A stretch of DNA of 64,000 nucleotides from a gamma proteobacterium HTCC5015. Its GTDB lineage: Bacteria; Pseudomonadota; Gammaproteobacteria; HTCC5015. Within the stretch, counting starts at the first letter, position 1. Every line of letters starts with the position of its first letter. Below are positions 2,121 to 52,244 of the stretch, in pieces. The DNA is taken from positions 1 to 64,000 of the forward strand of contig DS990601.1 of assembly GCA_000155715.1 (NCBI GenBank). The letters run 5' to 3'. The translations under genes and the position numbers were made by a program. The notes beneath the pieces were generated by a model. It made no database searches. It had not been told where the DNA came from and was given only the letters and a program-made list of their open reading frames with translations.

Positions 2121-2561
2121 ATGGTATTTTGTAGCGAACACATTCGTCGGCCATCATCGCGTCGATTTACCCAGTTGATGGACCTCTACGAGCAAAACTA
2201 TATTTTGCTTCGGCGCCTCTTGGGCGATGCTCAAAACCTGCCGGACGAATCCGTTTCACGCAGCGCAGATCACTTGCCGCTCTACTGCTGGGTTGTCGAG
2301 CGCTCCCCCTTTACCACCACCGTTCGATTGAGCTATCGCTTTGAAAACCACTCTCGCCGTCACCGAGAGTACGAGCCCGATTTGACCTTGCGAATTTATC
2401 ATGACGCTCGCAGTGGTGAGGCCATGAGCGCCATTGTGAACGGTAAACCACGGCAAATGCGCCACGCGTCTAATATGGAGTGGCGCTGGCAACTCAACCG
2501 GTTCCTCAATCGCTGGCTGCGCTATTGCCTACACCAAGGGCACGGTTTTAACCCGTCTTAA
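2121..2561 (+). CDS. DUF1249 family (YqiB-like) protein
   Basis: A 146-residue protein of unknown function in the DUF1249 family, whose E. coli member is YqiB (about 140 residues). Family hallmarks seen are MDLYEQNYILLRRLL near the N-terminus, LTLRIYHDA in the middle, and a C-terminal stretch LNRFLNRWLRYCLHQGHG. It looks soluble, with no signal peptide or membrane segment. I chose the ATG at 2121 because the family begins only about ten residues before the MDLYEQN motif; an in-frame ATG at 2085 would add twelve unlikely residues. It is transcribed away from ppsA across a 210-bp gap. Its last 14 bases overlap the end of the convergent transglutaminase gene. The family is well recognised; no function is claimed. 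Confidence 0.85.
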   Translation: MVFCSEHIRRPSSRRFTQLMDLYEQNYILLRRLLGDAQNLPDESVSRSADHLPLYCWVVERSPFTTTVRLSYRFENHSRRHREYEPDLTLRIYHDARSGEAMSAIVNGKPRQMRHASNMEWRWQLNRFLNRWLRYCLHQGHGFNPS

Positions 2562-4536
2562 TCTCCTGCCGCGCTCGGCGACAGGCATTGTGAAACCGTT
2601 CGGCCAGCGCCTCGTCCAAGGTGCCGTACTCCAGTCGATTGTAGGTTTTACCAATAAAATGAATGAGCGCCGCATGCTGGGGCAGGGCGCGAGCGAGGCG
2701 CTCCGCGTAATCTTCCGCCCCTTCATGGGGCCAACGAGCGAGCTGACGCTTCTCCATGGTGTCGCAAAAGCGGCGATAATCTCGCTCAACATCACTATAG
2801 CGACGGCTCGAACGCACCGAGCGCAGCCCCCACAGCAATACTGCCGCCAAAGTTAAACCGAACAGCACAAACAGCGTGATGACAATTTTGCGCACGCTGT
2901 CGAGCCCAAAACGCTCCAAAAAGTCTTTTTGAAAGTCTGAGTCATAGCCTAAAACCCACTGGTTCCAGCGGTTGTCCACCGCGTCCCACAGGCGTACCAC
3001 GTCCCGCAGTAAACTGTCGGAGCGAAACTGAAAGGGCAGAGACCCTGACTCCAAGCCCAGTGCATCTTCAACGCCCAGCTCGATGCGATCGGGAGCCACG
3101 GCCGCCGTTGGATCGATGCGCACCCAGCCCGAGCCCTCGATCCAAACCTCAGCCCAAGCGTGGGCATCTGACTGCCGCACCGTCATAAAGTCGTCGTAGG
3201 GATTCATCTCGCCGCCCTGATAACCGATGATAATTCGAGCGGGAATGCCCGCTGCGCGCATCAAAAACACAAAGGAACTGGCGTAGTGCTCACAAAAGCC
3301 GCGCTTGGTGTTAAACAAAAAGTCATCCAAGCTGTGCTGCCCCAGCGGGGGCGGTCTCAACGTGTAGTAATAAGGCTGTTGGCGAAAGCGTTGTAAAGCC
3401 GTTTCGATAATTTTTTGGGGCTGCTCTGCGTACTCTCGCCGCCAACGCTGTGCCAATGCCCTCGACTGCGGGTTACCACTGCGCGGCAGCGACAAGCCTA
3501 ACTGGATTTGGTCGTAAGGGAGTTGAGTTTGTATCCGATAGCGGGGCGCGGATTCGGCTCGGTACTGAATAACTTGAGTCACATCGCGCTCCATCGACAA
3601 CTCGTAATCGGCATCGTAAAAATGCACGCCATCGTGCTTTATTGGCATATCCAAGCCAAATACCGTTTGCTCACTGTGTGGCTCGAGCGTGACCTGATAG
3701 CGGTAGGTCGTGTCTTGATAATCAAATCTAGGCGCTTTGCTGCGCGCCTTCTCTTGGTCGAGATCGCGCCCACGCCAAGTGCTCCCATCGTAGCGCCACA
3801 GTACAACACCGCGCCAATAGCGCTCTGCGGGCGGGGGCACAGCGCCGTCAAACTGCACGCGAAAGGCAACGGCGCCCGACAGTGCTAATTGGGAGAAGTT
3901 ATCCAGTGACAAAGAGTCAGAAAACCCGGTTCGAGCGCTATTCGACTCGGTGGGAAGCCCCCATAACGGCCCGGGGATGCGAGGAAACAAGGCGAATAAA
4001 ATGGCCATCAAGGGCAAGGCCATCAACACATAGCGCGATGCGCCTTTAAGCAACTGAGGCAGCGGTAAGCTGACTCGGCCCTGCTGCTGCAACTGCATCA
4101 TCACAAAGGTAATTAGAATAACTTGAACCAGCATCCACAGGGCCGTGGGTATGCTTTGAGTAAATAAAAAATTGACCGCCGCCACAAAGTAGCCGAGCAG
4201 AACGACAACCATGCCGTCGCGGTAAGTTTTGGCTTCACACAGCTTCAACACCAGCATGGAGACCAAAAGTGCCGACCCGGGATCGCGGCCATTCACTCCA
4301 CCGTATGACAGCACTACAATCGCCAAGCAAGCGATAACTAGGCCAATCAGTAACCAACGGCTGAACGACACTACGCCTCGATTTAAAAGGATGCCGCGCC
4401 ACAGCAGGGCCATCATCATTACCCCGAGCAGAGGCATAGGAATGCGGAAAAAGTGGGGCGCCGCAGTGGTTAGTGCGGCCATCACCAACCACAAAATGGA
4501 GGCAACGCTCAGAGGAGATTGGGTTAGGCGGCTCAC
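2548..4536 (-). CDS. tgpA: TgpA-type membrane transglutaminase (DUF3488/transglutaminase-core/DUF4129)
   Basis: A 662-residue inner-membrane protein. The first about 190 residues hold several hydrophobic helices (DUF3488). A large periplasmic region with a transglutaminase-like core follows, with the Cys of GFCEHYASSFVFLMRAAG near residue 410, then DAHAWAEVWIEGSGWVRIDP supplying the His and Asp of the triad. A further membrane helix comes near residue 560 and a DUF4129-like tail ends the protein. The Pseudomonas homologue TgpA is essential there and has a periplasmic transglutaminase domain; its substrate is not settled. This is the last gene of the MoxR, DUF58, TgpA operon. Its ATG overlaps the DUF58 stop by four bases, implying translational coupling. 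No key residue is missing. Confidence 0.93.
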   Translation of the reverse strand: MSRLTQSPLSVASILWLVMAALTTAAPHFFRIPMPLLGVMMMALLWRGILLNRGVVSFSRWLLIGLVIACLAIVVLSYGGVNGRDPGSALLVSMLVLKLCEAKTYRDGMVVVLLGYFVAAVNFLFTQSIPTALWMLVQVILITFVMMQLQQQGRVSLPLPQLLKGASRYVLMALPLMAILFALFPRIPGPLWGLPTESNSARTGFSDSLSLDNFSQLALSGAVAFRVQFDGAVPPPAERYWRGVVLWRYDGSTWRGRDLDQEKARSKAPRFDYQDTTYRYQVTLEPHSEQTVFGLDMPIKHDGVHFYDADYELSMERDVTQVIQYRAESAPRYRIQTQLPYDQIQLGLSLPRSGNPQSRALAQRWRREYAEQPQKIIETALQRFRQQPYYYTLRPPPLGQHSLDDFLFNTKRGFCEHYASSFVFLMRAAGIPARIIIGYQGGEMNPYDDFMTVRQSDAHAWAEVWIEGSGWVRIDPTAAVAPDRIELGVEDALGLESGSLPFQFRSDSLLRDVVRLWDAVDNRWNQWVLGYDSDFQKDFLERFGLDSVRKIVITLFVLFGLTLAAVLLWGLRSVRSSRRYSDVERDYRRFCDTMEKRQLARWPHEGAEDYAERLARALPQHAALIHFIGKTYNRLEYGTLDEALAERFHNACRRARQEIKTG

Positions 4537-5537
4537 GACGCCACCTCACACAATGCTAAAGCTTCTAGGCATTGCGCTTGATGACGCAAGCCTGAGCCCA
4601 AAGCAAGCTCTTTTTGCGGCAGGCGTAAACCGTAGGGGACATGTTCGCGCTCGCTCTCCAGTATCCAGTAGGCGAGTTGCGACAAGCGCTGCTCAGGCGA
4701 CAAATCATCCAGTTGCTGATAATCGAGCCATCGGTGCTCGCTCAAGGTTCCCTCGAACGCCTTAGACATCCACTCCCGACTGTGGGCGAGCGATTTCCAA
4801 GCAATACGATTGGGCGAATCGGTAATTTGATAGCGGCGAATGCCCGCAAAGTCGTCATCTCCAGTCACTTGCGCACTGCGCTGCCCCGTGCCATCGGCCA
4901 ACTCACTCAGCGGCACCCCAAAATCGATCGGTTTTGGATAGACGATGACGCCTGTATCAAAACGCAGCCAAGACCACACAAAAAACAAACCAAAGGGATA
5001 GCAGGTCCACAATCGTGTACGAGGCAGTGAAAAATAGCCCCGCTCTAGAACGGGCGTGTCGTACACCAGCTCGCCATCGCTAGTACTCCCCGGTGGTTGT
5101 TCTTCCTCGGGATTTCCAAGCCACAACATTTCGCGTTGCCGCGCATTCAAACTTTTAACCGAAAAAATAAAACGAGCGCTTTGCCCCGCATAAATGGGCA
5201 AAACGGGTTTGGGGGCGATCTCCAACTTCACCAAGTTGGCGTAGCTAAAGTGCATGCCCAAAATAGCGATTGAAGTGACCAAAAATGTCAGCATAAAGGC
5301 CATGCTGTTGGTGTAGTTCATAGCGCCGAGCAGCAACAAAAAAAGCAGCGCAGCCAACATCAAGCCAAAACGAGTGGGGATGACATAGATGGAGCGTCCG
5401 TGAGTCACAATAGATGTACCACTGTGCCGAATACGTTGATTCGTCCAACGGTTTACACGCTGCCTTACGGGGGCAAATACGCGCCATTTTCCGATGTCTT
5501 CAAACCACATGACGCTATTCGACGGGGACAGCCTCAA
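4533..5537 (-). CDS. DUF58 domain protein
   Basis: A 334-residue protein with two adjacent hydrophobic helices near residues 55-95 (LMLAALLFLLLLGAMNYTNS and the next segment). A beta-rich region follows, then the DUF58 signature GDDDFAGIRRYQITDSPNRI-W around residues 225-250. DUF58 proteins regularly sit beside MoxR ATPases and are thought to act with them in assembling or maturing envelope proteins; the exact role is unknown. Here it is the middle gene of the operon. Its start overlaps the MoxR 3' end by 23 bases and its stop overlaps the TgpA start by four. The MoxR/DUF58/TgpA order matches that known from Pseudomonas. Confidence 0.9.
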   Translation of the reverse strand: MRLSPSNSVMWFEDIGKWRVFAPVRQRVNRWTNQRIRHSGTSIVTHGRSIYVIPTRFGLMLAALLFLLLLGAMNYTNSMAFMLTFLVTSIAILGMHFSYANLVKLEIAPKPVLPIYAGQSARFIFSVKSLNARQREMLWLGNPEEEQPPGSTSDGELVYDTPVLERGYFSLPRTRLWTCYPFGLFFVWSWLRFDTGVIVYPKPIDFGVPLSELADGTGQRSAQVTGDDDFAGIRRYQITDSPNRIAWKSLAHSREWMSKAFEGTLSEHRWLDYQQLDDLSPEQRLSQLAYWILESEREHVPYGLRLPQKELALGSGLRHQAQCLEALALCEVAS

Positions 5538-6429
5538 TCAAAAGCTCTCTCAATTCCTCGACGCTCAACAGCTCGTGGCGAAGGTTTTGCAGCCGGTGGC
5601 GAGCCAAAGGCAGAATGCCACGTTGAAAATCCTCAGGCTGAACAAAATCGCGGCCGTCGAGTAGGGCGCTGGCCTGGGCGATACGGATAAGCCCCAAGCC
5701 CGCCCGTGGTGATAGGCCTTCGGAAAAGAGGCTCTTGTCCCGACTTTGCTTCAAAAGCGCCTGAGCATAAGCCACAGCGCGATCGTTTACCTTCACTGCA
5801 CGAACCTGTTGCTGAAGCGTCAACAACGCTTCAGCGCTCATCGCCGGCTGCACCTCGCCAATCATCTCGCGCCGATCTTGTCCCTGTAGTAGCGCTCTCT
5901 CCGCTTCGTCAGAAAGCGGCGCCATGGCCACTTGCATCAAAAAACGGTCGAGTTGTGACTCGGGCAGGGGAAATGTCCCAATTTGAGAAGAGGGGTTCTG
6001 CGTCGCAATGACAAAAAAGGGGGCAGGGAGGTGATGCGTTTCCCCATCGACCGTCACCTGACGCTCCTCCATTGCCTCTAGCAGTGCACTCTGGGTCTTG
6101 GGCGTCGCTCGGTTCACCTCATCCGCCAACACCACCTGTTTAAAAATAGGGCCCGGATGAAAATCGAATTGACTGCGGTTTTGGTGATAAATGGAAACAC
6201 CGACAATGTCGGCTGGCAGTAGATCGCTCGTAAACTGGATACGTTGAAACTCAAGCCCCAGCACCCGAGCTAGCGCTTGAGACAACGTCGTTTTGCCAGT
6301 TCCCGGCAAATCTTCGATCAGCAAATGACCACCGGCTAGCAAACAGACTAGCGACTGGCGTATCACTTCGGGTTGTCCCAGGATGATTCGGTTTAGCAGC
6401 TGGCTCGCAGCACTCAAAGCATTCGACAT
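5515..6429 (-). CDS. MoxR family AAA+ ATPase
   Basis: A 304-residue cytoplasmic AAA+ ATPase. Walker A reads LPGTGKTTLSQ near residue 40. Walker B with the MoxR signature reads VVLADEVNRATPKTQSALLE near residues 99-118. Sensor 1 is in FVIATQNPSSQIGTFPLPES, and the C-terminal lid domain contains SPRAGLGLIR. MoxR ATPases act as chaperone-like partners of nearby DUF58 and VWA proteins. It is the first gene of a three-gene minus-strand operon; the upstream 97-bp gap should hold the promoter, which I could not define. The start at 6429 gives a normal MoxR N-terminus. Confidence 0.93.
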   Translation of the reverse strand: MSNALSAASQLLNRIILGQPEVIRQSLVCLLAGGHLLIEDLPGTGKTTLSQALARVLGLEFQRIQFTSDLLPADIVGVSIYHQNRSQFDFHPGPIFKQVVLADEVNRATPKTQSALLEAMEERQVTVDGETHHLPAPFFVIATQNPSSQIGTFPLPESQLDRFLMQVAMAPLSDEAERALLQGQDRREMIGEVQPAMSAEALLTLQQQVRAVKVNDRAVAYAQALLKQSRDKSLFSEGLSPRAGLGLIRIAQASALLDGRDFVQPEDFQRGILPLARHRLQNLRHELLSVEELRELLIEAVPVE

Positions 6430-6526: not shown

Positions 6527-7261
6527 CTAATAACCTTGTCGTGGTGCGCTGTAACCTTTCACCGAGGAGAAGGGGGTTGTACGGCCAACCAAGGCCTCGA
6601 CCAGCATGAGTTCTTCATCCGTGTGGTTTTTAACGGGGGCCGGCTCAATCAATTGCCCCGCTTTGCCCTCCTTGAGAATGTAGCGCGGAGCATCGTGGTG
6701 TGAGGCGGCAATGCGTTCAGAGCTTTTCCCGCGATCACTGTTCGACACAATATCGACAACGCCATAACAGGTGCATAAATAGCTGACATCTTTTTCCGAT
6801 TCGGCGTACACCCCTGTACCTCTGATTCCAATGGTTGCCGTCGATGTCTGCATCGTATGGGCGGGCTGGGCAGGCTCCCGCGCCCCAAACACCGAAAGTA
6901 GTTTACCGGTTACCAGCCTCAAGCCGTGCTCAAAAAAGTCCTTGCCGGAAAATTGCACTCGACTGTTTTCGCGTAGGATGTGAGCGTCGCCCCCAATCAC
7001 AAAAACCACATGGGAGCCACTTTCGGTCTCCACGAGCGAGTTAGCAGAGATAACAGTCTTTTCCGTTGCTCGTTTTCCATCAACTCGAACCACACCGCCC
7101 ATATCGTAAATCGAGCGGCCAGGCTCTAGCTCATCGGGAATTTCACCCATCGACCACGCAGGCAGCGCTATGCCTCCGCTCCCAAGTGCAAAAGCGCCCA
7201 TGGACAGCGCCTTGACTAAGAATTCCCTTCTGGCGTCTTCAAATTCCGTACTCATATCCAT
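6527..7261 (-). CDS. FecR-domain protein with Tat-like leader
   Basis: A 244-residue exported protein. The N-terminus carries DARREFLVKALSMGAFALGS, an Arg-Arg followed by a hydrophobic stretch and an Ala-rich cleavage region, which resembles a twin-arginine signal. The centre (about residues 50-165) is FecR-like: GGVVRVDGKRA, then SLVETESGSHVVFVIGGDAH and STATIGIRGTGVYAE. In FecR proteins this fold is a periplasmic sensor or structural domain; no FecI-type sigma gene is adjacent here. A Cys pair (YLCTCYG) lies near residue 160. It is divergent from the large surface-protein gene across a 165-bp gap. The shared intergenic region suggests, but does not prove, a link to the 7.4-15.5 kb cluster. 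Confidence 0.75.
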   Translation of the reverse strand: MDMSTEFEDARREFLVKALSMGAFALGSGGIALPAWSMGEIPDELEPGRSIYDMGGVVRVDGKRATEKTVISANSLVETESGSHVVFVIGGDAHILRENSRVQFSGKDFFEHGLRLVTGKLLSVFGAREPAQPAHTMQTSTATIGIRGTGVYAESEKDVSYLCTCYGVVDIVSNSDRGKSSERIAASHHDAPRYILKEGKAGQLIEPAPVKNHTDEELMLVEALVGRTTPFSSVKGYSAPRQGY

Positions 7262-7426
7262 TCCTCACAGCGAAAGCCATTTGATGTCGAACTCGGTTTC
7301 ACACTCTATTTTCATGGGATTATGCGACAAATTCATCACATTGCCCACATTTGTAAATTTAGATTAAGCTAGAATTCTAGAACAAATCACGCATATTCAT
7401 AAAAAACGGGCTAAGCCTAGAGGCTA

Positions 7427-10400
7427 GTGGTGATAGATACGTCATTAATGAAAAAGGAATTTGCTCGAAGCGGTAAGCACGTCTTTATGAGCCTGCTGCT
7501 ACTGTTGTGCTACTCCCAAGCGGCAACCGCCAATAGTACAGGCATTAGCGGCTACTCTGGCGAATCGGGAAGCTCATGCGTCAGTTGCCACAATGGCAAT
7601 GTTTACAACTACAATTCGGTCATTTCGGGCGATAGCACGCTGACACCCAACAGTAGTAGCAGCTACACATTTAGCCTCAATCGCGTGGCCGGCAGTACAG
7701 CAGGCGCTGCGGGCTTTAATTTGTCGGCCGACAATGGAACGCTGAGCTCAGGATCTGGCTCTAAAATACTCAATTCCGAGCTAACTCATAGCGCCAAAAA
7801 AACCAGCAACTTTAACTGGTCCTTTAATTGGACGGCACCCTCGGCAGACGGTGTCTATACGCTATACGCCTGCGGCAATCCCGTCGACAACGACGGAGTA
7901 GGCCTGAGTGACACCGGTGATGGCCCAGCGGATTGCACCGAATTCGACATCACGGTTAATACGCCTCCCACCGCTAATAGTGACTCCAGCTCACTGTCTG
8001 AAGACGGTAGCTACGATTATGTTTACCCATTGAGCAACGACTCTTCCGGAGATGTCGGCGACACAAAAAGCTTAATTGGCGTTTGCGCCACATCCACTTT
8101 GGACTACTACTGCAATAGCACCAGTTATACCCCGTCACAAGGTAGCTTTTACGTCGCCGGCAGCTATGTGCGCTATTTACCGGCTGCCAACTACAACGGT
8201 ACTTTTAGCATCAAGTACAAAATGCAGGACAGCTACGGCGACGTCGACACGGCCAACATCACCTATACCGTGTCGTCAGTGAATGACGATCCAGTCGTAT
8301 CCGGTGTCGACACAACACTTTCCTACACCGAGGGGCAGGGCGCTCGCACCTTAGAGAGCAGTATTAACTTGAGCGATGTGGACCACACGCAACTGAACCG
8401 CGCCGAGGTAGAAATTTCTGGCAACTATGTTAGCGGGCAAGATGTCTTGGCAGCCAGCAACTGCAGTGGCCTAAGTTGCAGTTTCAATAGCACGAACGGC
8501 ACCCTCACCCTATTTGGCACAGCCTCTATCGCCACCTACCAAAATGCATTGGAGTCAGTCACTTACGCCAATACATCAGAAGACCCCAGCACCGCCACGC
8601 GGACTGTTCGTATTCGAGTGCGCGATACGGCATATGCCTACAGCAATTACGACACCATGAACATCACCGTTAGCGCTGAAAACGATGCCCCCGTTGTCAG
8701 CGGCTTTGACACCACGCTCAACTACACCGAGAACGATGGCGCACGTTCACTAGAGAGCTCCGTCTCTCTCAATGACATCGACAGTAGCCAGCTCAACCGC
8801 GCTGAAATTCAGATATACAGTGGCTACATCAACGGCGAAGACGTACTCGCTGCGGGTAATTGTTCCGCCCTCAGTTGTAGCTTCAACACTGGCACTGGCA
8901 CTTATGTTTTTTCGGGCAATGCCAGTCTCGCGACTTATGAAGCGGTCATTGAATCCCTAACCTATACCAATCAATCCGAAGCACCGAGCACTAGCCCGCG
9001 AGCTGTAAGGCTAAGAGTGAGAGACACCGATAATGACTACAGCAATGGCGACACACTCTCCATTGCTGTCACTGCGGTGGAAGATCCTGCCGATTTCGAC
9101 AGTCCCGTCTACGAACGCATTGGTGTTGGCACATCGTCTAGTACCACTCAAAACATTGCCGAGGACAATCAATTACAACTGCAATTTGCCGCCAACGACC
9201 CCGAAGGCGTCAGCACTGAGTTTAACCTCGTCTCTACAAACCCCGTTCTCACGGGCCCCGAACCCTTGATCAGTGTATCCAGTGACGGCCTGCTTTCCTG
9301 GACCCCCGATGGGACCCGCAGCAGTGTTCAAGCGGTTATTGGCGTGAACGACAATATTGGCAGCAGTCCTGACAATACCTTTAGTATCACACTTACTGTT
9401 ACAGGCTCTAATGACGCCCCTGTCATCACCGAGGGCGCCTCTATCAATGTCAATATGGACGAGGATGCCTCGCCCACAGCATTCAACCTGACACTGAATG
9501 CCAGTGATTTAGAAAACGACACTCTCACTTGGAGCATCGTCTCTCAGGCCAGCAAAGGAACGGCCTCGACCAGCGGCACAGGCAACAGCAAGGCCATTCT
9601 GTACACTCCCGATCTCAATGAAAACGGCAGCGATGCTTTCGTGGTGAGAGTCACTGACGGCAGCCTGTCCGACGACATCACCGTCAATGTCAACATAGCC
9701 CCCCAGGCGGACGCTCCCGTCATTACTGACGGAAAAGCAATTACAGTAGCTATGTCTGAAGACGGCAGCCCTACGCCCTTTGAATTAGTGCTCAACGCCA
9801 CCGATCCAGACGCCGGCGACACATTGACATGGCGTATTAGCCAAGCGGCATCTCGTGGTGCCACCTCAATACCCGGTGCCACGAGAGCAGGGCAACCCAT
9901 TGTCTACAAGCCCAACGACGACTACTTCGGCAGCGATCAATTTACGGTTTCAGTCAGTGACGGTCGTTTAAGCGACAGCATTGATGTCACCGTTAACATT
10001 GCCCCCGTGAACGACAATCCTGTCATCCAAACGATTGGAACCCTGCCTGCGGCCACTGAAGATCAGCTCTATCAGTTTGTTGTCGCTGTGTCCGATGTCG
10101 ATCACAGCGTTCCCGAAGACCTCAGGTTCTCATTAAATAACGCCCCCGATGGCATGCAAATTAATGCCACTGGCCAAGTAAGCTGGACTCCCAGCGAAGG
10201 TGTCAGCGGTTCTGGAAAAGTTGGCGTGCGCGTCGAAGACAGTGCTGGCGGTATCGATGCAGCGATGTTTAGCGTTAGCGTGTCAGCCGTCAATGACGGC
10301 CCCAGTATTAACAGCACACCACCCAACACTGCGACCGAGGGAGAGCTCTACGAATACACACTACAGGTCAGCGACCCCGACGACGCCAACGACGGCAGTG

Positions 10401-12493
10401 GCGCACTGAATTTCTCCCTGTCGAATCCACCGGCAGGTATGAACATCAGCAACACGGGGGAAATCACTTGGACGCCTGTCCAAGGTGACGCCAACGGCAG
10501 CTCACAGGTCTACAATTTCACCGCATCCGTCAAAGATGGCGGTGAAGACGGCGCAACCACTGCCGTTCAAGCCATACAAATCACAGTTGCTATCCCCGAT
10601 GCCGATGGCGATACCGTCGCCGACTACGAAGATAATTGCCCCGCAGTGGCCAATACGGATCAAGCCAACAACGATGCCGATGCGGAGGGCGACCTGTGCG
10701 ACGACGATGATGATAACGACGGCATGCCAGACGACTTTGAAGTCGACAACGACTTCGACCCGTTGGATGAGAGCGATGCGGCTAGTGATAGGGATGGAGA
10801 CGGCATCAGCAACCTCGACGAATACCTCAATAATACCGACCCAAGTACAGACAGTGTGGCGCCCGTGATAACTCTGGCTCCCGAAGAGGTCAGCCGCAAC
10901 GCCAAAGGGCTACTGACCCCCGTTGAACACAGCGCCTCTGCCGAGGACGCGATCGATGGCCCCGTCGCAGTTACTGCTGACAAAACAGGGCCTTTTGCCA
11001 GTGGCCACCACGTGGTGACTTGGCAAGCCTCTGATACCTCCAAAAACCTGGCACAGAGCGATCAAATCATCGACATTTACCCTCGAGTTTATGTCAGCCC
11101 TTCACAAACGGTGGGCGAGGGGCAAGTCGTTAACGTGCCTATTCACATTACGGGCAATGCCGTCTCTTATCCCGTCACTGTGTACTACAGCATTGACGGC
11201 GCCACAGACAGCAGTGATCACGATTTGGTCGCAGGACAAATCGACATTACCTCGGGACACGTCAGTGAACTCACGTTTAACACGCTGGCCGACACCCTCA
11301 ACGAAGGCAGTGAATCACTTAACATTCGTCTGACTGCCGCTGACGGCGCCAGTCTCTCATCCGCAGTGAATCACCAAATCACCATCACAGATTTGCCAGC
11401 ACCTCCCCGTATTAACCTGTTAGCCGCGCAGGACGGCCATAGCACGCGGACAATTTATCTCGACCAAGGGCTTGTCCATTTCAGCGCTAATGCATCAGAC
11501 CCCAATGGCGACACCCTTAGCCACACTTGGACGGCCAGCATTTCAGGTATTAATACGATCAGCGGCGGCGGTAGCAACGACGATCATTGGGAGATTGATC
11601 CCCAGAACTTAGTGGCAGGGCAAAGCATCAACATTCGCTTAAGTACCCACGATGGTCGTCATACTGCCGTGCAAAGCCTCAGCTTAGGGATAAAAGATTC
11701 GGCACCACTCCTTGATGCCTTTGAGGACAGCGATGGCGATGGCATCGACGATGCCGCTGAAGGCTGGGGGGACTCCGATGGCGACGGCATTGCCAACTAT
11801 CTCGACAGCACGCCTCTCAGTTCGGCTCTGCAAACTTCAACAGGCGATTTTGAGACATCATTACAACAAGCCATTCAAACCGATCCTGGCTTGACTCTAA
11901 AACTCGGCTCTCACGCCAGCGCACAGGGCGCCAGCAAAGCCAGCATCGCCGCCAATTCACTCTTGCAAACGGGCAATGAAGACTACCAATTGATTGGTCA
12001 AGCATTTGATTTTGAAATCCACGGGCTCGACACCTCATTGACTCAAGCTCATGTCGTGATTCCGCTGGCCGTGCGCATCCCCAGCGACGATGCAGTTGTT
12101 CGCAAGTACCACCCTGAGCACGGTTGGCGCGCCTTCAACAGCAGCGAGGGAGATACCATTCACTCGCTTCGCAGCCCCGACGGCACTTGCCCAGAGCCCG
12201 GCAGCGAGCAATACCAAGAGGGGCTCGCTATATTTGCCAACTGTTTACAGTTAACGCTAACCGACGGTGGTCCTAACGATACCGATGGTGTTAGAAACGG
12301 CATTATTGTCGACCCCAGTGCCATTGCCGTCCCCAAGCAAAGCAACAGCAGTAACGACAGCAGCAACGAGAGCGCCCCCCGAGCGGGCGGTTCTAGCGGG
12401 CTCTCCCCCCTGTTTTTCCTTTGGCTACTGCTGATTAGCTTTGCGGCAGCGCGCCGCCGCAAAGCATCCATCCAAATTACTCCATCGCATTGA
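7427..12493 (+). CDS. Giant multidomain surface protein, one CxxCH, GlyGly-CTERM-like tail
   Basis: A 1688-residue secreted protein. A signal peptide ends near the sequence SQAATA. The first domain (about 30-180) resembles choice-of-anchor V/Reeler-type domains and carries one haem-type motif, CVSCH, at residues 51-55. Two homologous repeats start near 285 and 418 (each with DTTL-YTE). Cadherin-like domains begin near 662 and 761, Ig-like domains near 862 and 955, and thrombospondin type 3 Ca-binding repeats rich in Asp lie about 1058-1112, with a further stretch near 1430-1465. A HYR-like domain lies near 1143-1213. The C-terminus has GGSSG, a hydrophobic helix and ARRRK, the layout of rhombosortase (GlyGly-CTERM) substrates. 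GTG at 7427 follows AGAGG; the ATG at 7448 is an alternative. It probably heads an operon with the next two genes. Confidence 0.88.
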   Translation: MVIDTSLMKKEFARSGKHVFMSLLLLLCYSQAATANSTGISGYSGESGSSCVSCHNGNVYNYNSVISGDSTLTPNSSSSYTFSLNRVAGSTAGAAGFNLSADNGTLSSGSGSKILNSELTHSAKKTSNFNWSFNWTAPSADGVYTLYACGNPVDNDGVGLSDTGDGPADCTEFDITVNTPPTANSDSSSLSEDGSYDYVYPLSNDSSGDVGDTKSLIGVCATSTLDYYCNSTSYTPSQGSFYVAGSYVRYLPAANYNGTFSIKYKMQDSYGDVDTANITYTVSSVNDDPVVSGVDTTLSYTEGQGARTLESSINLSDVDHTQLNRAEVEISGNYVSGQDVLAASNCSGLSCSFNSTNGTLTLFGTASIATYQNALESVTYANTSEDPSTATRTVRIRVRDTAYAYSNYDTMNITVSAENDAPVVSGFDTTLNYTENDGARSLESSVSLNDIDSSQLNRAEIQIYSGYINGEDVLAAGNCSALSCSFNTGTGTYVFSGNASLATYEAVIESLTYTNQSEAPSTSPRAVRLRVRDTDNDYSNGDTLSIAVTAVEDPADFDSPVYERIGVGTSSSTTQNIAEDNQLQLQFAANDPEGVSTEFNLVSTNPVLTGPEPLISVSSDGLLSWTPDGTRSSVQAVIGVNDNIGSSPDNTFSITLTVTGSNDAPVITEGASINVNMDEDASPTAFNLTLNASDLENDTLTWSIVSQASKGTASTSGTGNSKAILYTPDLNENGSDAFVVRVTDGSLSDDITVNVNIAPQADAPVITDGKAITVAMSEDGSPTPFELVLNATDPDAGDTLTWRISQAASRGATSIPGATRAGQPIVYKPNDDYFGSDQFTVSVSDGRLSDSIDVTVNIAPVNDNPVIQTIGTLPAATEDQLYQFVVAVSDVDHSVPEDLRFSLNNAPDGMQINATGQVSWTPSEGVSGSGKVGVRVEDSAGGIDAAMFSVSVSAVNDGPSINSTPPNTATEGELYEYTLQVSDPDDANDGSGALNFSLSNPPAGMNISNTGEITWTPVQGDANGSSQVYNFTASVKDGGEDGATTAVQAIQITVAIPDADGDTVADYEDNCPAVANTDQANNDADAEGDLCDDDDDNDGMPDDFEVDNDFDPLDESDAASDRDGDGISNLDEYLNNTDPSTDSVAPVITLAPEEVSRNAKGLLTPVEHSASAEDAIDGPVAVTADKTGPFASGHHVVTWQASDTSKNLAQSDQIIDIYPRVYVSPSQTVGEGQVVNVPIHITGNAVSYPVTVYYSIDGATDSSDHDLVAGQIDITSGHVSELTFNTLADTLNEGSESLNIRLTAADGASLSSAVNHQITITDLPAPPRINLLAAQDGHSTRTIYLDQGLVHFSANASDPNGDTLSHTWTASISGINTISGGGSNDDHWEIDPQNLVAGQSINIRLSTHDGRHTAVQSLSLGIKDSAPLLDAFEDSDGDGIDDAAEGWGDSDGDGIANYLDSTPLSSALQTSTGDFETSLQQAIQTDPGLTLKLGSHASAQGASKASIAANSLLQTGNEDYQLIGQAFDFEIHGLDTSLTQAHVVIPLAVRIPSDDAVVRKYHPEHGWRAFNSSEGDTIHSLRSPDGTCPEPGSEQYQEGLAIFANCLQLTLTDGGPNDTDGVRNGIIVDPSAIAVPKQSNSSNDSSNESAPRAGGSSGLSPLFFLWLLLISFAAARRRKASIQITPSH

Positions 12494-12514
12494 GCCAACA
12501 AGGATTAAACTATT

Positions 12515-13411
12515 TTGCTGTACCTAGGGAACCAACACACTCTTTTTGCCAAGGCGATACTGACCTTTTTGTTACTGCTCGTTAGCACTCTCACTTGCGC
12601 TCAAAGCACTTGGATAGGGCACTTTAATGCCTCTGTCGCTCACGATGACAACCTAACCCAAGCCGAACTCAAGCGTGATATTGCTAGTGACAACCGTCTC
12701 GACACCCAAGTGCGCTATGGGCCTCGATTCATATTGAACAATTTTCAATCATTAAGCCTCAATGCAATCGGCGGTCTTCAGTTTCATCAAGAGTTCTCCG
12801 AGCTCGACCAATACCACGTTGGCGGCGAACTCATTCACCGCTTTCAAACGCGCCTAGGCTTTAGTGCACCGCTCTACCAGTCCGAGCTCGCCATCACCAA
12901 CGAATGGAACGACAGTGAGCAACGCAATGCCACGCAGCTCAAAGCGCAATTCTTCGTTACCCGCCGCATCACAAACCGCATTAGCCTCACCGGCGGCTAT
13001 GAGTACAAGCAACGCGACACCGACAGCACGGTGTTTGATACGCGTCAGCATCGCTTGTTTGGCCACCTCGATTATCAATTGCAGTCCCAAGTGGCGCTCT
13101 ACACAGCCTACAGTTTTGCTCAAGGCGATATCACTTCAACCGCTCTTCTGTGGTCAGACACGCCCTACAAAGTTCTAAAAGCCGCAGACTTTGTAGAAGA
13201 GGATCAGGCCTTTGGCCGTGCCCGAGGCAACACTTGGCTCAGCTACCGCCTTGGCGATGTAGATACACACGCATTGGTAATCGGCGGCAACTGGGGCATA
13301 GGCAAAGGCATGGCCTTAGATACCTCGTTGGTACAAGCTCATGCCCAAGCACCCGCTGACAACGAATATCAACGCACTATCGTCCGACTGGCTTTGCTCA
13401 AGAGGTTTTAA
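12515..13411 (+). CDS. Predicted outer-membrane beta-barrel protein
   Basis: A 298-residue protein with a signal peptide (AKAILTFLLLLVSTLTCAQ). Alternating amphipathic strands follow, rich in Tyr, Gln, Asn and Thr, with repeated turns such as NRISLTGGYEYKQRDTDSTV. It ends in a Phe (LALLKRF), as outer-membrane barrels usually do. The start is a TTG preceded by AAGGA at 12500-12504; no ATG fits the signal peptide. It lies 21 bp after the giant surface-protein gene and its stop is 2 bp before the ATG of the next gene, so the three are very likely co-transcribed. I do not recognise a named family. A role as pore or anchor for its two CxxCH-bearing neighbours is inference from position. Confidence 0.75.
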   Translation: MLYLGNQHTLFAKAILTFLLLLVSTLTCAQSTWIGHFNASVAHDDNLTQAELKRDIASDNRLDTQVRYGPRFILNNFQSLSLNAIGGLQFHQEFSELDQYHVGGELIHRFQTRLGFSAPLYQSELAITNEWNDSEQRNATQLKAQFFVTRRITNRISLTGGYEYKQRDTDSTVFDTRQHRLFGHLDYQLQSQVALYTAYSFAQGDITSTALLWSDTPYKVLKAADFVEEDQAFGRARGNTWLSYRLGDVDTHALVIGGNWGIGKGMALDTSLVQAHAQAPADNEYQRTIVRLALLKRF

Positions 13412-13413
13412 AC

Positions 13414-15483
13414 ATGGCAAAAACTTTGGCCATCATAGCGTTTGCTCTAGCGACATTGCTCGGTTGCAGTCGAGGCGATTCAGAGGCGCCTTCAGCACCC
13501 GATTTAGAGGCCCATGAGCCCAACCGATTTTTAACCTACTTCAATCGCCAAGCCAGTCTTGCAGCGGGTCGCTACCAATTCGTTGTTGACAGCAACAACG
13601 GAGCAGGGGGGAGCTACACTCTCGATGTAAGCCGATACGGCGAACAGCAGCATGACTCATTTGATGGTCAATGGCCTGAGGGCGGCACGCACACAATTCA
13701 CCTAAGTCGCGCAGGCGGGCTAAACGCAGTGGTGACGAGCTCTGGCCCCGTACCTAATCTCAAACTACTCAATCAATGGGGTGACGAGATAGCGAGCGCG
13801 CAGGGCAAGGGCGATACGGCAGTCATCGATCTACCAATGAGTAAAACAGGCACCGCAAGTTACAGTCGCGCTTACTATCGCGCTGTCGACCCCAATAACG
13901 AACGCGACACACTTAATAAATTCCTACAAAAAAATGGCTTCAATAAGGGCCACGATGCTCATGTCACCTTTCGCGACACCAAGGATCTTGGCTACGGGCG
14001 AGAGATGTACGCTAGGCGCAATGACGATGGCTCGATGGCATTTTATGTGCGCAACTATTTTGTCGATGTACTGCCCGGCCTAGACAGCAACTACAGCACC
14101 ATGAATGTACATGCCGCTGCCGACCGCAATCCCGACTTTCACATTGGCACTAATGCCATCGAGTTTTCCCCCATCGATCCCGATGACCCCAACTCCGAAA
14201 AGATCCTCAAATTTTTTACCTACTGGGGCGGTAATAACCCGACTAAAAATGGGCAAAGACGCTTGAGCGTCGATCTAGACGGCCGTGGTGATAAGGCTAT
14301 GCCAAATGCGTGTTTTGCCTGTCACGGTGGCCGCATATTGCCGCTCGATGAAAACGGCGAATTTCCTTTAATCGGCTTACAATCGGCACACTTGAATCAA
14401 CTTGAAGTCAACACATTTGAGTTTTCTGACAAACCCCAATTTAGCCAATCTGCACTTGAAGCGCACTTTAAAACCATTAACAAAATGGCCTTCGAAAGCT
14501 ACCCAGAGACACCCAGTAACGGGCAATGGAACAGCGAGCTTGCCCGAGATGTCGCTTCAGGCCGTTATGGTGGCGATTTCACAGCCAACACCTATAACGA
14601 ACACTACATCCCATCGGGCTGGCAAGAGCAGGGCGGGCGCCCCGCAGGTGTCAGTTTGCTCTATCAGAAGGTTGTCGAACCTCACTGTATTTCCTGCCAT
14701 GCCCTACAGGGTTCAACCCACGAAAATTCAGTGAGCTTTGCGAGCTACGAAGATTTTATGGGTTTCGAAGAACGAATTTTAGACTATGTCTATGAGCGCG
14801 GCGTCATGCCACTATCGCTGCGAAACTATACCGCCTTTTGGGAAAGCGAAGCCCCCAGTGTGCTCGCATCCTACCTGCCCAATTTTGATCATTTTGATGA
14901 AAGTGGGAACATCAGCTCTCCAGGCCGCGTTATCGCCCGTGCGGGTGATGACCGCACAAGCGCCTCTCCTGCCATTTTAGATGGCAATGCCAGTAGCCAT
15001 GCCGAGCGCTATCAATGGGAGCTACTGGAACAACCTAATGGTGCACAAAGTGAAATAGCCCAAGCTGACACGGCCACGGGGCGACTCATCAGTGACACGC
15101 CTGGCAATTACCGAGTGAAGCTGACTGTATCCAATGCCTTGGGCAGTGACTCAGACGAGCTTCTAGTCACGCTCAGCGGCACGCAAGCACTGACATTTGA
15201 AAGCGACATCCGACCTTTATTAGGCAGCAGCAGTAACGCAGGTAGCTGCACGGCTTGCCACAGCCCTACAGGCATCTCCAGCCCAGGCAATATGCCCGTG
15301 CACTACGACGATGGAAATCCCAATTTGTACCGCGATGTGCTCGCAAGGGTCAATTTAGAATGGCCAGAGCGCAGCAAACTCCTAGTGAAACCCAGCACAG
15401 AACAACACGGGGGTGGCGTCGTGCTTACTGACAACGATCGCCAAACTTTATTGCGTTGGATTCGCGAAGGGGCAAGACCTTAA
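13414..15483 (+). CDS. Lipoprotein with three CxxCH haem motifs and a PKD-like domain
   Basis: A 689-residue lipoprotein. The N-terminus MAKTLAIIAFALATLLGC ends in a lipobox with Cys18. A beta-rich N-terminal domain (about 30-150) precedes the haem part. CFACHGG lies near residue 300, CISCHAL near 425 and CTACHSP near 612. Between the last two is a PKD-like domain (about 510-590) with PGNYRVKLTVSNALGSDSDE. Three CxxCH motifs predict a triheme c-type cytochrome of the cell envelope. The last domain, with DIRPLL-GSCTACHSP and ending in LLRWIREGARP, resembles the cytochrome units of planctomycete-type oxidoreductases. No catalytic domain was recognised. It is the third gene of the cluster. Electron transfer at the cell surface is inference. 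Confidence 0.82.
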   Translation: MAKTLAIIAFALATLLGCSRGDSEAPSAPDLEAHEPNRFLTYFNRQASLAAGRYQFVVDSNNGAGGSYTLDVSRYGEQQHDSFDGQWPEGGTHTIHLSRAGGLNAVVTSSGPVPNLKLLNQWGDEIASAQGKGDTAVIDLPMSKTGTASYSRAYYRAVDPNNERDTLNKFLQKNGFNKGHDAHVTFRDTKDLGYGREMYARRNDDGSMAFYVRNYFVDVLPGLDSNYSTMNVHAAADRNPDFHIGTNAIEFSPIDPDDPNSEKILKFFTYWGGNNPTKNGQRRLSVDLDGRGDKAMPNACFACHGGRILPLDENGEFPLIGLQSAHLNQLEVNTFEFSDKPQFSQSALEAHFKTINKMAFESYPETPSNGQWNSELARDVASGRYGGDFTANTYNEHYIPSGWQEQGGRPAGVSLLYQKVVEPHCISCHALQGSTHENSVSFASYEDFMGFEERILDYVYERGVMPLSLRNYTAFWESEAPSVLASYLPNFDHFDESGNISSPGRVIARAGDDRTSASPAILDGNASSHAERYQWELLEQPNGAQSEIAQADTATGRLISDTPGNYRVKLTVSNALGSDSDELLVTLSGTQALTFESDIRPLLGSSSNAGSCTACHSPTGISSPGNMPVHYDDGNPNLYRDVLARVNLEWPERSKLLVKPSTEQHGGGVVLTDNDRQTLLRWIREGARP

Positions 15484-16739: not shown

Positions 16740-19700
16740 TTAATTAATGATCAACCCGGTGTCTTTGTCTGGTATTGGGATTGGTATGTTAAACTCGATG
16801 TTGGGGACTTCCCGGTCCATATTCATTGAGTACGTTCCAAAACGATTGATATTGCCCCTGCGAAAAGGTGATGTCCCGGCAAGCACTTCGGGGTCAATCG
16901 GATAGCCCTCTTCTGCCAACTCCCCAAGCGCCTTTGTCATTGTCACCACGTTGTAAAGAATAATCATGTTGGCGACAAGATGATTATATTTGATGATTTT
17001 TTGCTGTTCGTGCCGAACGTTCTCCGCGATCAAGCCATCATTGCCAAACATCACCCACTGCAAGAAATCGTTAAATTCCTCACTTTTGCACGTCGCGGCC
17101 TGGATCATTTCCCTGATTTCAGCCTCCGCAATGTATTGCAGCAGGAAAACGGTCCGAACGACTCGACCGAGCTCTCGCAAAGCCAGGTAAAGCTTGTTTT
17201 TTCTGGAATAGGTTCCCAATCGTCGCAGAATGGTCGATGCGTTGATTCTTCCGGCTTTCACTGATAACGCAATGCGTAGCATATCGGGCAGACACGATTC
17301 GATCAGCTCCCACTTTATGGTGTCCTTGAACAAGGTATCGATATGCTTAAAGTGATCCTCTTTGCTGATCCGGTAGAGCTTCAGATGTTTAATGCCTCTA
17401 ATCCTGGGCATCAGCTTGATGCCCAGCAGGTAAGCGAGCCCGAACACCGCTTCACTCTGGGATTGGGTATCTCCATGTATGGTATCGGGCTGAATGTCTG
17501 ACTGATTTTTCAATAATCCATCGAGGATATACACGGCCTCATAAACACCACAGGGAATGAAGTGGCTGAATAACGCAATATAGGTATCAGACAAATGATA
17601 GTAGCCGAGGCCACCGGTACCCAAATACCGCAAATGGTGTTCACTCAAAAGATTTTGCTCGTAAAGATCCCATTTGGTGCCGTCGGCTGACGCCGTCTTG
17701 CCGGTACCCCAAATCTTCGGTAGGGAGAATCGATTGTAGGCATTGATGACCTTGGTAATGGCCTCATCGATCTTCTCCTCTGTCGAATGACGCAGGTTCA
17801 ACCACGCAATCTGGCGACGGTTAATGCCCTCAATGGAACGGGAGGTTTGTGTGGGCCCCAGGTTGCAGCCGAAACAAAATAAGGTAACGATAAAGCGACG
17901 CTGATGATCGGTGAGTTTGGTTTCATGCCCCGATAATGGCTTGAAACCCTTGCTTAATCCCAGCCATTTTTCCATATCAATTAATACGTCGAGGATGCTG
18001 GTTTCCGACAGCCGGTCATCCAATGCACGATTGATTCTTTCCAGTGCGGCGGGAATGGGTTTGCGTTTAACGCGCTGAATGACCAACTCACCTTTTTCAA
18101 TTCTGACCTGATCATTGCCCGGAAATTTTTTATCGGTTTCATTCGATGACTTTCTCAACCAACGTTTAAGTTCGGCAATAAGCGCTTTGGGGTCGGTAAT
18201 GATGCCGGCCAGTTCACCGTACTCGGCGATCTGTTCGTGATACTCCTCCCAGCTCACCAACTGGTCTCTAAAATCGCCATATTTATCACTGCCCATGATC
18301 ACCACGTCGCCAGACTTCAACTCCTGGGCCAGCGTTGTTAACAAGCAGAGTTCGAAATATTTTCGATGCACTTCCGTGTTGTTTCTGTTGCGGGTCGTTT
18401 TTCCAGTGACCAGTTTTAACCATTTATCGGGTATCCACGACAGATCAAGCGGCTCGCCCTTGGCATTCACGGCATCCAGAGTCGGCTTACGACTACGACG
18501 ATGCCCCATGATTAAGGCCAGAGCATCGAGCGTCGATTGATCCTGAGTCGTCGATTGTAAATCCATGTGGGCAACGCAATCGAACAACAGAGCCCGCTTG
18601 CTCCGGTAGAGTGACAGCATAAAGGGCAGATAATTATTGTTGGCATAGGCCAACTGCTCGTCACAGCGCTTTTTAAGTTCGTCGGGTTCTCCCTGAAATG
18701 CCTGGGCAATCGCGTCGAGGCGCTCTATCTCGGTACCGGGAATCTGATACGCCTGGATAACATCCCGTAATGCCGCGATTAGAGCGTCAACCAGCTGAGT
18801 TTGTGAGAGCTGATGCTGTTTAAGGGCTTCATTGGCGTGATTGATCAGATTCTGGACGATACGGATAAAAATGTCGGCAATGTCATCAGAGGCTTTTCCT
18901 GTCTGGGCGCGAATGAAAAGTGCCGCCAAGGCATAGCGCTTATGCTCGGCCAACTCATTCATGTTGGCGACGTTGAGGGCTCTAGCTTCAATGACAAAGC
19001 GCTTGAGCTTGGGCGCGGGTAGCATCAGGTCTTTCGGCAGACAATCGTCAAAGGTTCTCAACCAGCGGAGGTGGTCTACAAACTCTTTCACGTTGCTGAC
19101 CGTCGGCTTTCGTGGCTCCTGCTTGATGAGGTCCCAAAGGCTCTTGGATTGGCTCGTTTTCGTAGTGGGCGTCAGAACCTCTTGAATACGGGTTTTGGCG
19201 CTTTCAGACAGGTCATGGTATACAGCCTCGAACAACTCACGATTGACCTGTGCTCTCGCTGCTTTTGCCTCACGCACGAAGGTACCAAATGCTGGCAGTT
19301 CGTACCGGGCCTTTGCCATCGACTCCAGGCCCACGTTGATGATATCCGGGATCTCGTCTTTGGTGGTGGCCGCCTCACGCAAAGCAGACTTGAGAAACTC
19401 AAGAGTGGTGTCGCTAACCGGGGTAATACCCAGGAAGTCTCGGATCGACTTGAGATGCCGCTGACGAGTGCCGGAAGTATCGTAATTTTCCAGAGGAGCG
19501 GCCTGACTTTTGAGTTCCAGGCACGTCATCAGATGGTTCAGTATTGCCTCCGGCACTTCAGCAATGGGAACAAAATAGCCCAGACGCTGAAAGGTCTTTA
19601 GTAACACCATGAATCCCAAGCGAGCGGTAGGCTGGCGAGTCTGGGATCGAACCAGCTCAAGCTCTTCCTGGTTCGGCGTATAGACGGTAACCAGATCCTC

Positions 19701-19754
19701 AGGTGTCGGCTGAGACTTTAACCGCGGATAAGCGGTTTCATGTAAGGCGGTCAT
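16740..19754 (-). CDS. tnpA: Tn3-family transposase TnpA (divergent, second type)
   Basis: A 1004-residue DDE transposase. It opens with an N-terminal DUF4158-type DNA-binding region (TAYPRLKSQPTPEDLVTVYT). The catalytic Asp residues lie in SADGTKWDLYEQN and IHGDTQSQSEAVFGLAYLLG, and the Glu in the CKSEEFNDFLQWVMFGNDG segment. It shares the general plan of the two other tnpA genes in the window but differs clearly throughout, so it belongs to a different transposon. It is divergent from the toxin-antitoxin pair across a short gap. A candidate end, starting GAGGGTCGGCAACGATTCC at 16701, lies just past its stop and ends in GCCAC like other ends here. I found no partner end, so this element is probably a remnant that broke tnpT. 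Confidence 0.93.
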   Translation of the reverse strand: MTALHETAYPRLKSQPTPEDLVTVYTPNQEELELVRSQTRQPTARLGFMVLLKTFQRLGYFVPIAEVPEAILNHLMTCLELKSQAAPLENYDTSGTRQRHLKSIRDFLGITPVSDTTLEFLKSALREAATTKDEIPDIINVGLESMAKARYELPAFGTFVREAKAARAQVNRELFEAVYHDLSESAKTRIQEVLTPTTKTSQSKSLWDLIKQEPRKPTVSNVKEFVDHLRWLRTFDDCLPKDLMLPAPKLKRFVIEARALNVANMNELAEHKRYALAALFIRAQTGKASDDIADIFIRIVQNLINHANEALKQHQLSQTQLVDALIAALRDVIQAYQIPGTEIERLDAIAQAFQGEPDELKKRCDEQLAYANNNYLPFMLSLYRSKRALLFDCVAHMDLQSTTQDQSTLDALALIMGHRRSRKPTLDAVNAKGEPLDLSWIPDKWLKLVTGKTTRNRNNTEVHRKYFELCLLTTLAQELKSGDVVIMGSDKYGDFRDQLVSWEEYHEQIAEYGELAGIITDPKALIAELKRWLRKSSNETDKKFPGNDQVRIEKGELVIQRVKRKPIPAALERINRALDDRLSETSILDVLIDMEKWLGLSKGFKPLSGHETKLTDHQRRFIVTLFCFGCNLGPTQTSRSIEGINRRQIAWLNLRHSTEEKIDEAITKVINAYNRFSLPKIWGTGKTASADGTKWDLYEQNLLSEHHLRYLGTGGLGYYHLSDTYIALFSHFIPCGVYEAVYILDGLLKNQSDIQPDTIHGDTQSQSEAVFGLAYLLGIKLMPRIRGIKHLKLYRISKEDHFKHIDTLFKDTIKWELIESCLPDMLRIALSVKAGRINASTILRRLGTYSRKNKLYLALRELGRVVRTVFLLQYIAEAEIREMIQAATCKSEEFNDFLQWVMFGNDGLIAENVRHEQQKIIKYNHLVANMIILYNVVTMTKALGELAEEGYPIDPEVLAGTSPFRRGNINRFGTYSMNMDREVPNIEFNIPIPIPDKDTGLIIN

Positions 19755-24555: not shown

Positions 24556-24570
24556 ACAGGAATGATAAAC

Positions 24571-25977: not shown

Positions 25978-25992
25978 GCAGTAGGAGACCCC

Positions 25993-37026: not shown

Positions 37027-38703
<1,677 letters not shown>

Positions 38704-47864: not shown

Positions 47865-47889
47865 TCACCGAACACAGGATTATTGAACC

Positions 47890-52244
<4,355 letters not shown>

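Follow-up and report, generated by a model that had tools for sequence, protein, structure and literature searches.

A conserved haem-motif locus of gamma- and betaproteobacteria and its possible part in signalling across the cell envelope

What might a bacterium do with a giant protein that carries a single haem-attachment motif, when the gene for it is followed by those for an outer-membrane barrel and a lipoprotein with three further such motifs, and is divergent from a gene for a FecR-like protein? The question is raised by a four-gene locus in the gammaproteobacterium HTCC5015 (assembly GCA_000155715.1; 2.63 Mb in 30 contigs, completeness 98.86), of which we analysed the first 64 kb of contig DS990601.1 (C27); this whole stretch of 64,000 nucleotides is hereafter called the window. 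The four genes belong to a module that is real and conserved and, within the open-access papers searched, appears not to have been described. Our answer is tentative: the locus quite possibly codes for a signalling module spanning the cell envelope, with haem at the surface on its input side. The features on which the discussion draws are as follows.

6527-7261, minus strand: FecR-fold protein, 244 residues, with twin-arginine leader (weak Pfam FecR match; AlphaFold model and structure matches)
6767-6775, minus strand: CTC pair of this protein, Cys163/Cys165, invariant in 22 aligned rows
7427-12493, plus strand: stalk protein, 1688 residues from GTG (open reading frame (ORF) list and domain scans)
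7502-7900, plus strand: choice-of-anchor V domain (NF041895), putative haem-bearing tip of the stalk (106.4 bits, curated cut-off 42)
7577-7591, plus strand: CVSCH, putative haem-attachment motif of the stalk, residues 51-55, its sole CxxCH
12224-12331, plus strand: choice-of-anchor U region (NF041766, 39.7 bits, cut-off 32)
12383-12490, plus strand: Gly/Ser, hydrophobic and basic tail of the stalk, GlyGly-CTERM-like by eye, below the curated TIGR03501
12515-13411, plus strand: outer-membrane barrel, 298 residues, C-terminal Phe (40-row family alignment A5; Pfam matches only weak)
13414-15483, plus strand: lipoprotein, 689 residues, with three haem motifs and a PKD domain (lipobox Cys18; structure model with predicted local distance difference test (pLDDT) 89.3 and predicted template-modelling score 0.89)
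14311-14325, plus strand: haem motif 1 of the lipoprotein, CFACH, residues 300-304, invariant columns
14686-14700, plus strand: haem motif 2, CISCH, residues 425-429, invariant columns
14965-15171, plus strand: PKD domain of the lipoprotein (K319L-like PKD, E-value 3e-4; structure match to the KIAA0319L PKD)
15247-15261, plus strand: haem motif 3, CTACH, residues 612-616, within a Cytochrom_C domain (PF00034, 25.8 bits, gathering score 21.3)

An earlier note on this DNA had described a tight set of stalk, barrel and lipoprotein genes divergent from the FecR-like gene, and all four genes were found at the coordinates it gave, the plus-strand set (7427-15483) being separated internally by spacers of 21 and 2 nucleotides. 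Its reading of the products also held, namely a giant protein with one CxxCH, a lipoprotein with three such motifs behind its lipobox cysteine (four at the locus in total), and a FecR-like protein with a twin-arginine (Tat) leader, here RREFL, and a CTC pair at residues 163-165. By eye, the likelier start of the stalk is the ATG at 7448. Domain scans order the stalk as a haem tip, Ig/cadherin repeats, thrombospondin-3-like repeats, the choice-of-anchor U region and the hydrophobic-basic tail. A promoter and terminator scan returned fewer sites than in shuffled sequence and its result was not used.

Conservation of the gene set was gauged at two scales. Among 369 genomes of the class, the lipoprotein was matched (E-value 1e-10) in 13 and the barrel (E-value 1e-8) in 22, nine of the 13 lipoprotein genomes being among the latter; in G001 the two lie on different contigs. 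A scan of a species-genome collection, in which the relatives of the source genome are gammaproteobacteria, then provided 49 loci in gamma- and betaproteobacteria, with Paucimonas lemoignei DSM 7445, Paraferrimonas sedimenticola NBRC 101628, Psychrosphaera sp. B3R10 and Alcanivorax sp. 1008 among the named isolates. In 42 of these 49 the barrel gene directly precedes the lipoprotein gene, so that the co-occurrence on which the earlier note had staked its proposal is well attested. Two loci with no barrel beside the lipoprotein (L056 and L079) begin at a contig edge, and in L070 an unrelated ORF occupies the upstream position, the genome containing a barrel fragment only. Sequence distances of the lipoprotein correlate with those of the barrel (r 0.91, 36 shared loci, 0 of 2000 shuffles) and of the FecR-like protein (r 0.88, 19 loci, 0 of 2000 shuffles), with shared ancestry contributing to both. 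Literature searches, limited to open-access papers, returned no description of this gene set and no paper containing 'choice-of-anchor V', in agreement with the earlier remark that no described system of this make-up was known.

The haem motifs are conserved along with the genes, as regards both the lipoprotein and the stalk; neither outcome named in the earlier note as refuting it, unconserved motifs or genes that do not co-occur, was observed. In a comparison of eight homologues each of the lipoprotein's three motifs occupies invariant columns, the third being CX3CH or CX4CH in two, and in a larger alignment of 46 rows (A4, mature-form numbering) conservation of the motifs is complete or at least 90%. 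Alignment A4 omits L049 (a near copy of L047), the partial or over-extended L060, L075, L077, L079, L081 and L082, and repeat genomes (L021=L041, L023=L048, L024=L051, L026=L069, L028=L066). An invariant Met465 is a candidate distal ligand for haem motif 2. Among 27 complete stalks, comprising 22 separate ones (that of the window counted) and five fused to the barrel, 26 carry an N-terminal CX2CH, CX3CH or CX4CH. This count excludes open-ended stalks as well as the ORFs upstream of the barrel in L057, L060, L063, L073, L075 and L077, which were judged unrelated to stalks. The domain surrounding the stalk motif is not constant. The choice-of-anchor V tip exceeds its cut-off in the window and in L022, L034, L041, L051, L052, L058, L066 and L094; a different tip domain, with MPxxG after its CxxCH, occurs in L035, L036, L038, L042, L043 and L045-L049 and resembles, by eye, a small cytochrome c; and a third kind is found in Granulosicoccus-type loci. 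L037 and L044 were not scored as MPxxG tips by our pattern script, yet each has the MP pair. The stalk haem motif is probably important, because several unrelated tip domains retain one. Granulosicoccus-type stalks (L064, L067, L069, L071, L076, L080 and L081) have a further CxxCH in mid-stalk.

From these conserved CX2-4CH motifs, stalk and lipoprotein may be c-type cytochromes with putative covalent haem. A search of the source genome for CcmE was negative and was therefore counted against haem attachment until ResB, a cytochrome maturation protein of the other maturation route, was found there (E-value 1e-136).

The stalks of gammaproteobacteria end in a Gly/Ser, hydrophobic and basic tail, which the earlier note had taken, in the window, to be of GlyGly-CTERM type. 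In its curated sense this assignment did not hold: TIGR03501 does not report the tail of the window's stalk, nor did a search of the whole source genome yield a match there, and the cut-off was passed by four of ten scanned tails, all from homologues. The enzyme associated with such tails is nevertheless encoded, as the note had suggested looking for. A rhombosortase (TIGR03902, 147.9 bits against a cut-off of 84) lies on contig C25 between gspG and gspF in a type II secretion cluster, and GspD was detected in the same genome at an E-value of 1e-182. Of the 47 module genomes, 36 have a rhombosortase above the cut-off, compared with 125 of the 369 class genomes. When these results are sorted by stalk tail, the enzyme is encoded by 28 of the 30 genomes whose stalk has a GlyGly-like tail and by none of the four with an autotransporter-type stalk; here the trait is confounded with ancestry, all four autotransporter genomes being betaproteobacterial. 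The 47-genome counts, here and for CHASE2 below, leave out the genomes of L074, L077, L079 and L081. GlyGly-CTERM/rhombosortase surface proteins (PMC3237569, PMC6219818) resemble the stalk in the look of the tail and in the presence of rhombosortase and type II secretion genes in the genome. They differ in that the window's tail has no curated match, and the words 'cytochrome' and 'CXXCH' are missing from the text of PMC3237569.

The autotransporter-type loci are informative in another way. In L061, L062, L065 and L068, all betaproteobacterial by record, a single ORF encodes the stalk, then an autotransporter beta-domain (E-values 2e-50, 1e-47, 2e-41 and 2e-48, respectively), then the barrel. 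Display of the stalk at the surface is likely, because an autotransporter beta-domain replaces the tail in these four loci. A fusion of another sort was seen in two Oleispira loci (L036:5356-9996 and L038:5233-9924), where a single frame runs on without a break from the hydrophobic tail of the stalk to the barrel; a signal-peptidase-like AxA site follows that tail directly.

The FecR-like protein and the barrel direct attention towards signalling. Pfam FecR matches the former below its gathering score (E-value 7e-4, 20.5 bits against 24), and its sequence profile matched no chain in the PDB. Its AlphaFold model (pLDDT 83) was paired by Foldseek with the anti-sigma structure 4m0n (E-value 8e-6) and the PupR signalling domain 6ovk_R (E-value 2e-4), at a probability of 1.00 and TM-scores of only 0.41-0.50; at these modest TM-scores, the predicted fold is that of FecR-type signalling proteins. 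Its CxC pair, together with His189 and His213, is invariant in 22 rows and could form a metal site. The FecA-FecR and PupB-PupR systems thus offer a likeness in their periplasmic FecR fold and, as we infer for the present case, in an outer-membrane barrel partner. They differ in that no cytoplasmic anti-sigma domain was found in the FecR-like protein, which starts with its Tat leader, and in that a domain scan of the cluster's ORFs revealed no sigma-factor or TonB-dependent receptor gene. A FecR-like gene accompanies 23 of the 49 loci; in many gammaproteobacteria it lies upstream in divergent orientation, and in betaproteobacteria it is found downstream in convergent orientation.

The barrel, of approximately 275 residues when mature, keeps this company elsewhere. 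Of 18 barrel loci that have no lipoprotein linked to them, 11 carry FecR, and three of the remainder (L091, L093 and L101) have a second-messenger enzyme at the barrel or beside it; a further five loci with Thiotrichaceae-like barrels (L110-L114) all carry FecR. The FecR-barrel pair is thus independent of the haem genes. Barrel alignment A5 omits L038 (ambiguous bases), L049, L060, L062 and L072. The barrels of L051 (8394-9824), L053, L055 and L058 are extended at the N-terminus by about 185 residues. That of L051 matches the LysM region of FimV/HubP (E-value 1e-20), which suggests a periplasmic N-terminus.

Cyclases are concentrated around these genes. In the 49 loci and the window combined, 177 genes lie no more than two genes away from lipoprotein, barrel or FecR, and 15 of these encode cyclases; of the 376 genes farther away, none does. 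A CHASE2 cyclase adjoins FecR in nine of the 49 loci, eight gammaproteobacterial (confirmed by Pfam in L036, L037 and L043 and by profile in L038, L044, L046, L047 and L049) and one betaproteobacterial (L068). Six further cyclases occur in Granulosicoccus-type loci, that of L069 being a cyclase with FHA domain by Pfam, and in L069 and L076 a CRP-family gene lies between lipoprotein and cyclase. CHASE2 was detected in 45 of 47 module genomes, compared with 190 of 369 class genomes, the latter at a stricter E-value; the source genome encodes its CHASE2 cyclase on another contig than the window's.

The clustering of cyclases and the haem-independent FecR-barrel pair therefore point to signalling, more than to a haem-bearing membrane-spanning complex as such. 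The earlier note had proposed the latter. Much of that proposal stands, given the conserved co-occurrence and CxxCH motifs, the rhombosortase and the likely surface display; its GlyGly-CTERM component, in the curated sense, does not, and it had missed both the occurrence of the FecR-barrel pair without haem genes and the cyclases. On our analysis, the module may be viewed as FecR/barrel/CHASE2-cyclase signalling to which surface haem proteins have been added.

A sequence of events consistent with this view can be sketched. Stalk and lipoprotein would be loaded with haem in the periplasm, export would proceed by type II secretion or by the autotransporter domain, and the haems of both would be displayed on the outer surface. 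A change there, in redox state, ligand or contact, would alter the barrel, with redox or a haem ligand as our first guess for the input. The barrel would signal to the periplasmic FecR-fold protein, which would control an inner-membrane CHASE2 adenylate/guanylate cyclase, and the cyclic nucleotide would act through a CRP-type regulator. That the surface haems, one at the stalk tip and three on the lipoprotein, serve in precisely this way as a redox or ligand antenna, relaying through barrel and FecR-fold protein (possibly metal-binding) to the CHASE2 cyclase, is doubtful in so specific a form.

Similar components, in the same layout, have been described together. In Sinorhizobium meliloti (PMC7529298, PMC13001267), activation of the CHASE2 cyclase CyaK by a plant signal requires the outer-membrane receptor NsrA, and a FecR domain, an outer-membrane barrel and a CHASE2 cyclase are encoded together. 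On pSymB, a large ORF upstream of where cyaK lies encodes a FecR domain (E-value 2e-15) and TPR repeats; its position and size suggest that it is NsrA. NsrA unites FecR, TPR and barrel in one chain, whereas FecR-like protein and barrel are separate proteins in the window, which also has no CHASE2 cyclase beside them, the cyclase being elsewhere in the genome. The NsrA system has no haem proteins, and the signal proposed for it is the protein uL2. A 2022 survey (PMC9239204) reports in its available part a cluster in Campylobacterota where a CHASE2 adenylate cyclase is encoded with a phosphodiesterase, a FecR-domain outer-membrane protein and a TPR protein, and which shares with the module FecR, the outer membrane and the CHASE2 cyclase; that part makes no mention of a haem stalk or lipoprotein.

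Several observations weigh against the signalling reading. The resemblance to NsrA does not extend to the barrels, between which similarity was undetectable (hhalign probability 0.2), and is weak between the FecR regions. FecR was seen in only the 23 loci given above, some contigs being short; the window has no adjacent cyclase; and at an E-value of 1e-6 no CHASE2 was found in the module genomes of Paraferrimonas (G384) and G392. The cyclase links are phylogenetically clustered and of at least three arrangements, and may represent few independent events. In L054, L059, L074 and L078 the lipoprotein has no adjacent barrel, barrel-FecR pairs occurring elsewhere in those four genomes, while in six betaproteobacterial or related loci (L057, L060, L063, L073, L075 and L077) no stalk lies directly upstream of the barrel. 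The one complete stalk without a haem motif is that of L065. Finally, haem binding, surface exposure and contact between the proteins are all predicted.

The same data must be set against other explanations. An electron conduit in porin-cytochrome style, with the barrel holding the triheme lipoprotein, electrons passing between periplasm and surface, and the stalk haem as outer contact, would account for the adjacency of barrel and multihaem lipoprotein in 42 of 49 loci and for the four haem motifs of the locus, and the barrel has a weak likeness to MtrB/PioB (PF11854, 15.7 bits). MtrCAB-type complexes likewise combine an outer-membrane barrel with cytochromes. That score, however, lies below the cut-off of 23, as does the 15.9 bits obtained with TIGR03509 (cut-off 240), and a mature barrel of about 275 residues is small beside the 635-position MtrB/PioB profile. 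The cluster encodes no periplasmic multihaem partner, decahaem or otherwise, and the stalk haem lies beyond up to approximately 1600 residues of repeats, probably too far, if these are extended, for electrons to hop to the lipoprotein. A conduit would also leave the FecR and cyclase linkage unexplained. We consider it quite unlikely, and an assignment of the locus to the MtrCAB kind was dropped while the conduit was retained as a rival.

A surface enzyme or adhesin complex is unlikely, if less so than a conduit. On this view catalysis would take place at the conserved di-haem core of the lipoprotein, or else the stalk would attach to a surface, and the neighbouring FecR and cyclase genes would do no more than regulate expression of the complex. 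The many invariant polar residues of the lipoprotein core would suit an active site, and the autotransporter anchors of some stalks would suit adhesins, as would the Ig/cadherin repeats, which are common in adhesins. Domain and profile scans, on the other hand, matched no enzyme family to the core, and a barrel and FecR that pair without haem genes are not dedicated to such an enzyme. Least probable, by a wide distance, is a chance or assembly-driven neighbourhood of unrelated genes inherited together. Shared ancestry alone can produce correlated sequence distances such as ours, but it would have to coincide with adjacency across gamma- and betaproteobacteria despite different flanking genes, with fusion of stalk and barrel in one ORF in several loci, and with a FecR association kept from either side of the operon.

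Should the signalling reading prove correct, some bacteria would sense their surroundings with haem at the cell surface, and haem-based cyclic-nucleotide signalling would have an extracellular form. To our knowledge, haem-based sensors are situated in the cytoplasm, inner membrane or periplasm, and the surface cytochromes we are aware of have been read as electron carriers; the two fields would meet in a conserved surface haem module that is tied to a barrel, a FecR-fold protein and cyclases. As far as we know, the natural inputs of CHASE2 cyclases are mostly unknown, and the module would open to experiment the question of how signals reach them across two membranes. The exchange of anchors (rhombosortase-type tail or autotransporter) and of tips constitutes a natural experiment, in which one haem motif at the end of the surface stalk has been kept.

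The core of the lipoprotein eluded naming by fold, an attempt which we abandoned. Searches with the full-length model (Foldseek and a second aligner) gave a good match for the PKD domain only, other parts being barely tested by them, and a sequence profile compared with PDB chains likewise recovered the PKD only. Stand-alone relatives of the di-haem core, of about 430-440 residues with two CxxCH, are encoded at L027:9296-10624 and L030:9007-10305; that of L027 matches no Pfam family. In one clade (L051:11888-12412, L052:12364-12915, L053, L055 and L058) the lipoprotein is followed by a protein of about 175 residues, for which no Pfam family match was obtained in L051 or L052.

Beside the module or the barrel, other signalling genes were noted at L041:13304-15754 and L048:7912-9177 and in L091 and L101, the kinds being a PAS/GAF histidine kinase, an HD-domain protein with DUF3391, and dCache-GGDEF-EAL proteins. 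In the window itself, a run on the same strand as the FecR-like gene and adjoining it (2548-6429) comprises genes for a MoxR ATPase and a TgpA-type transglutaminase, which flank one gene without an assigned family. Three large Tn3-type transposases are encoded at 16740-19754 (confirmed by Pfam), 41068-44055 and 55388-58378 (the latter two similar by eye), which places the haem module at the border of a mobile region. What by eye is a heavy-metal island (23317-29190, 37036-38703 and 46554-52244) holds two efflux sets of the Czc/Cus kind of RND system and a mercuric-reductase-like protein.

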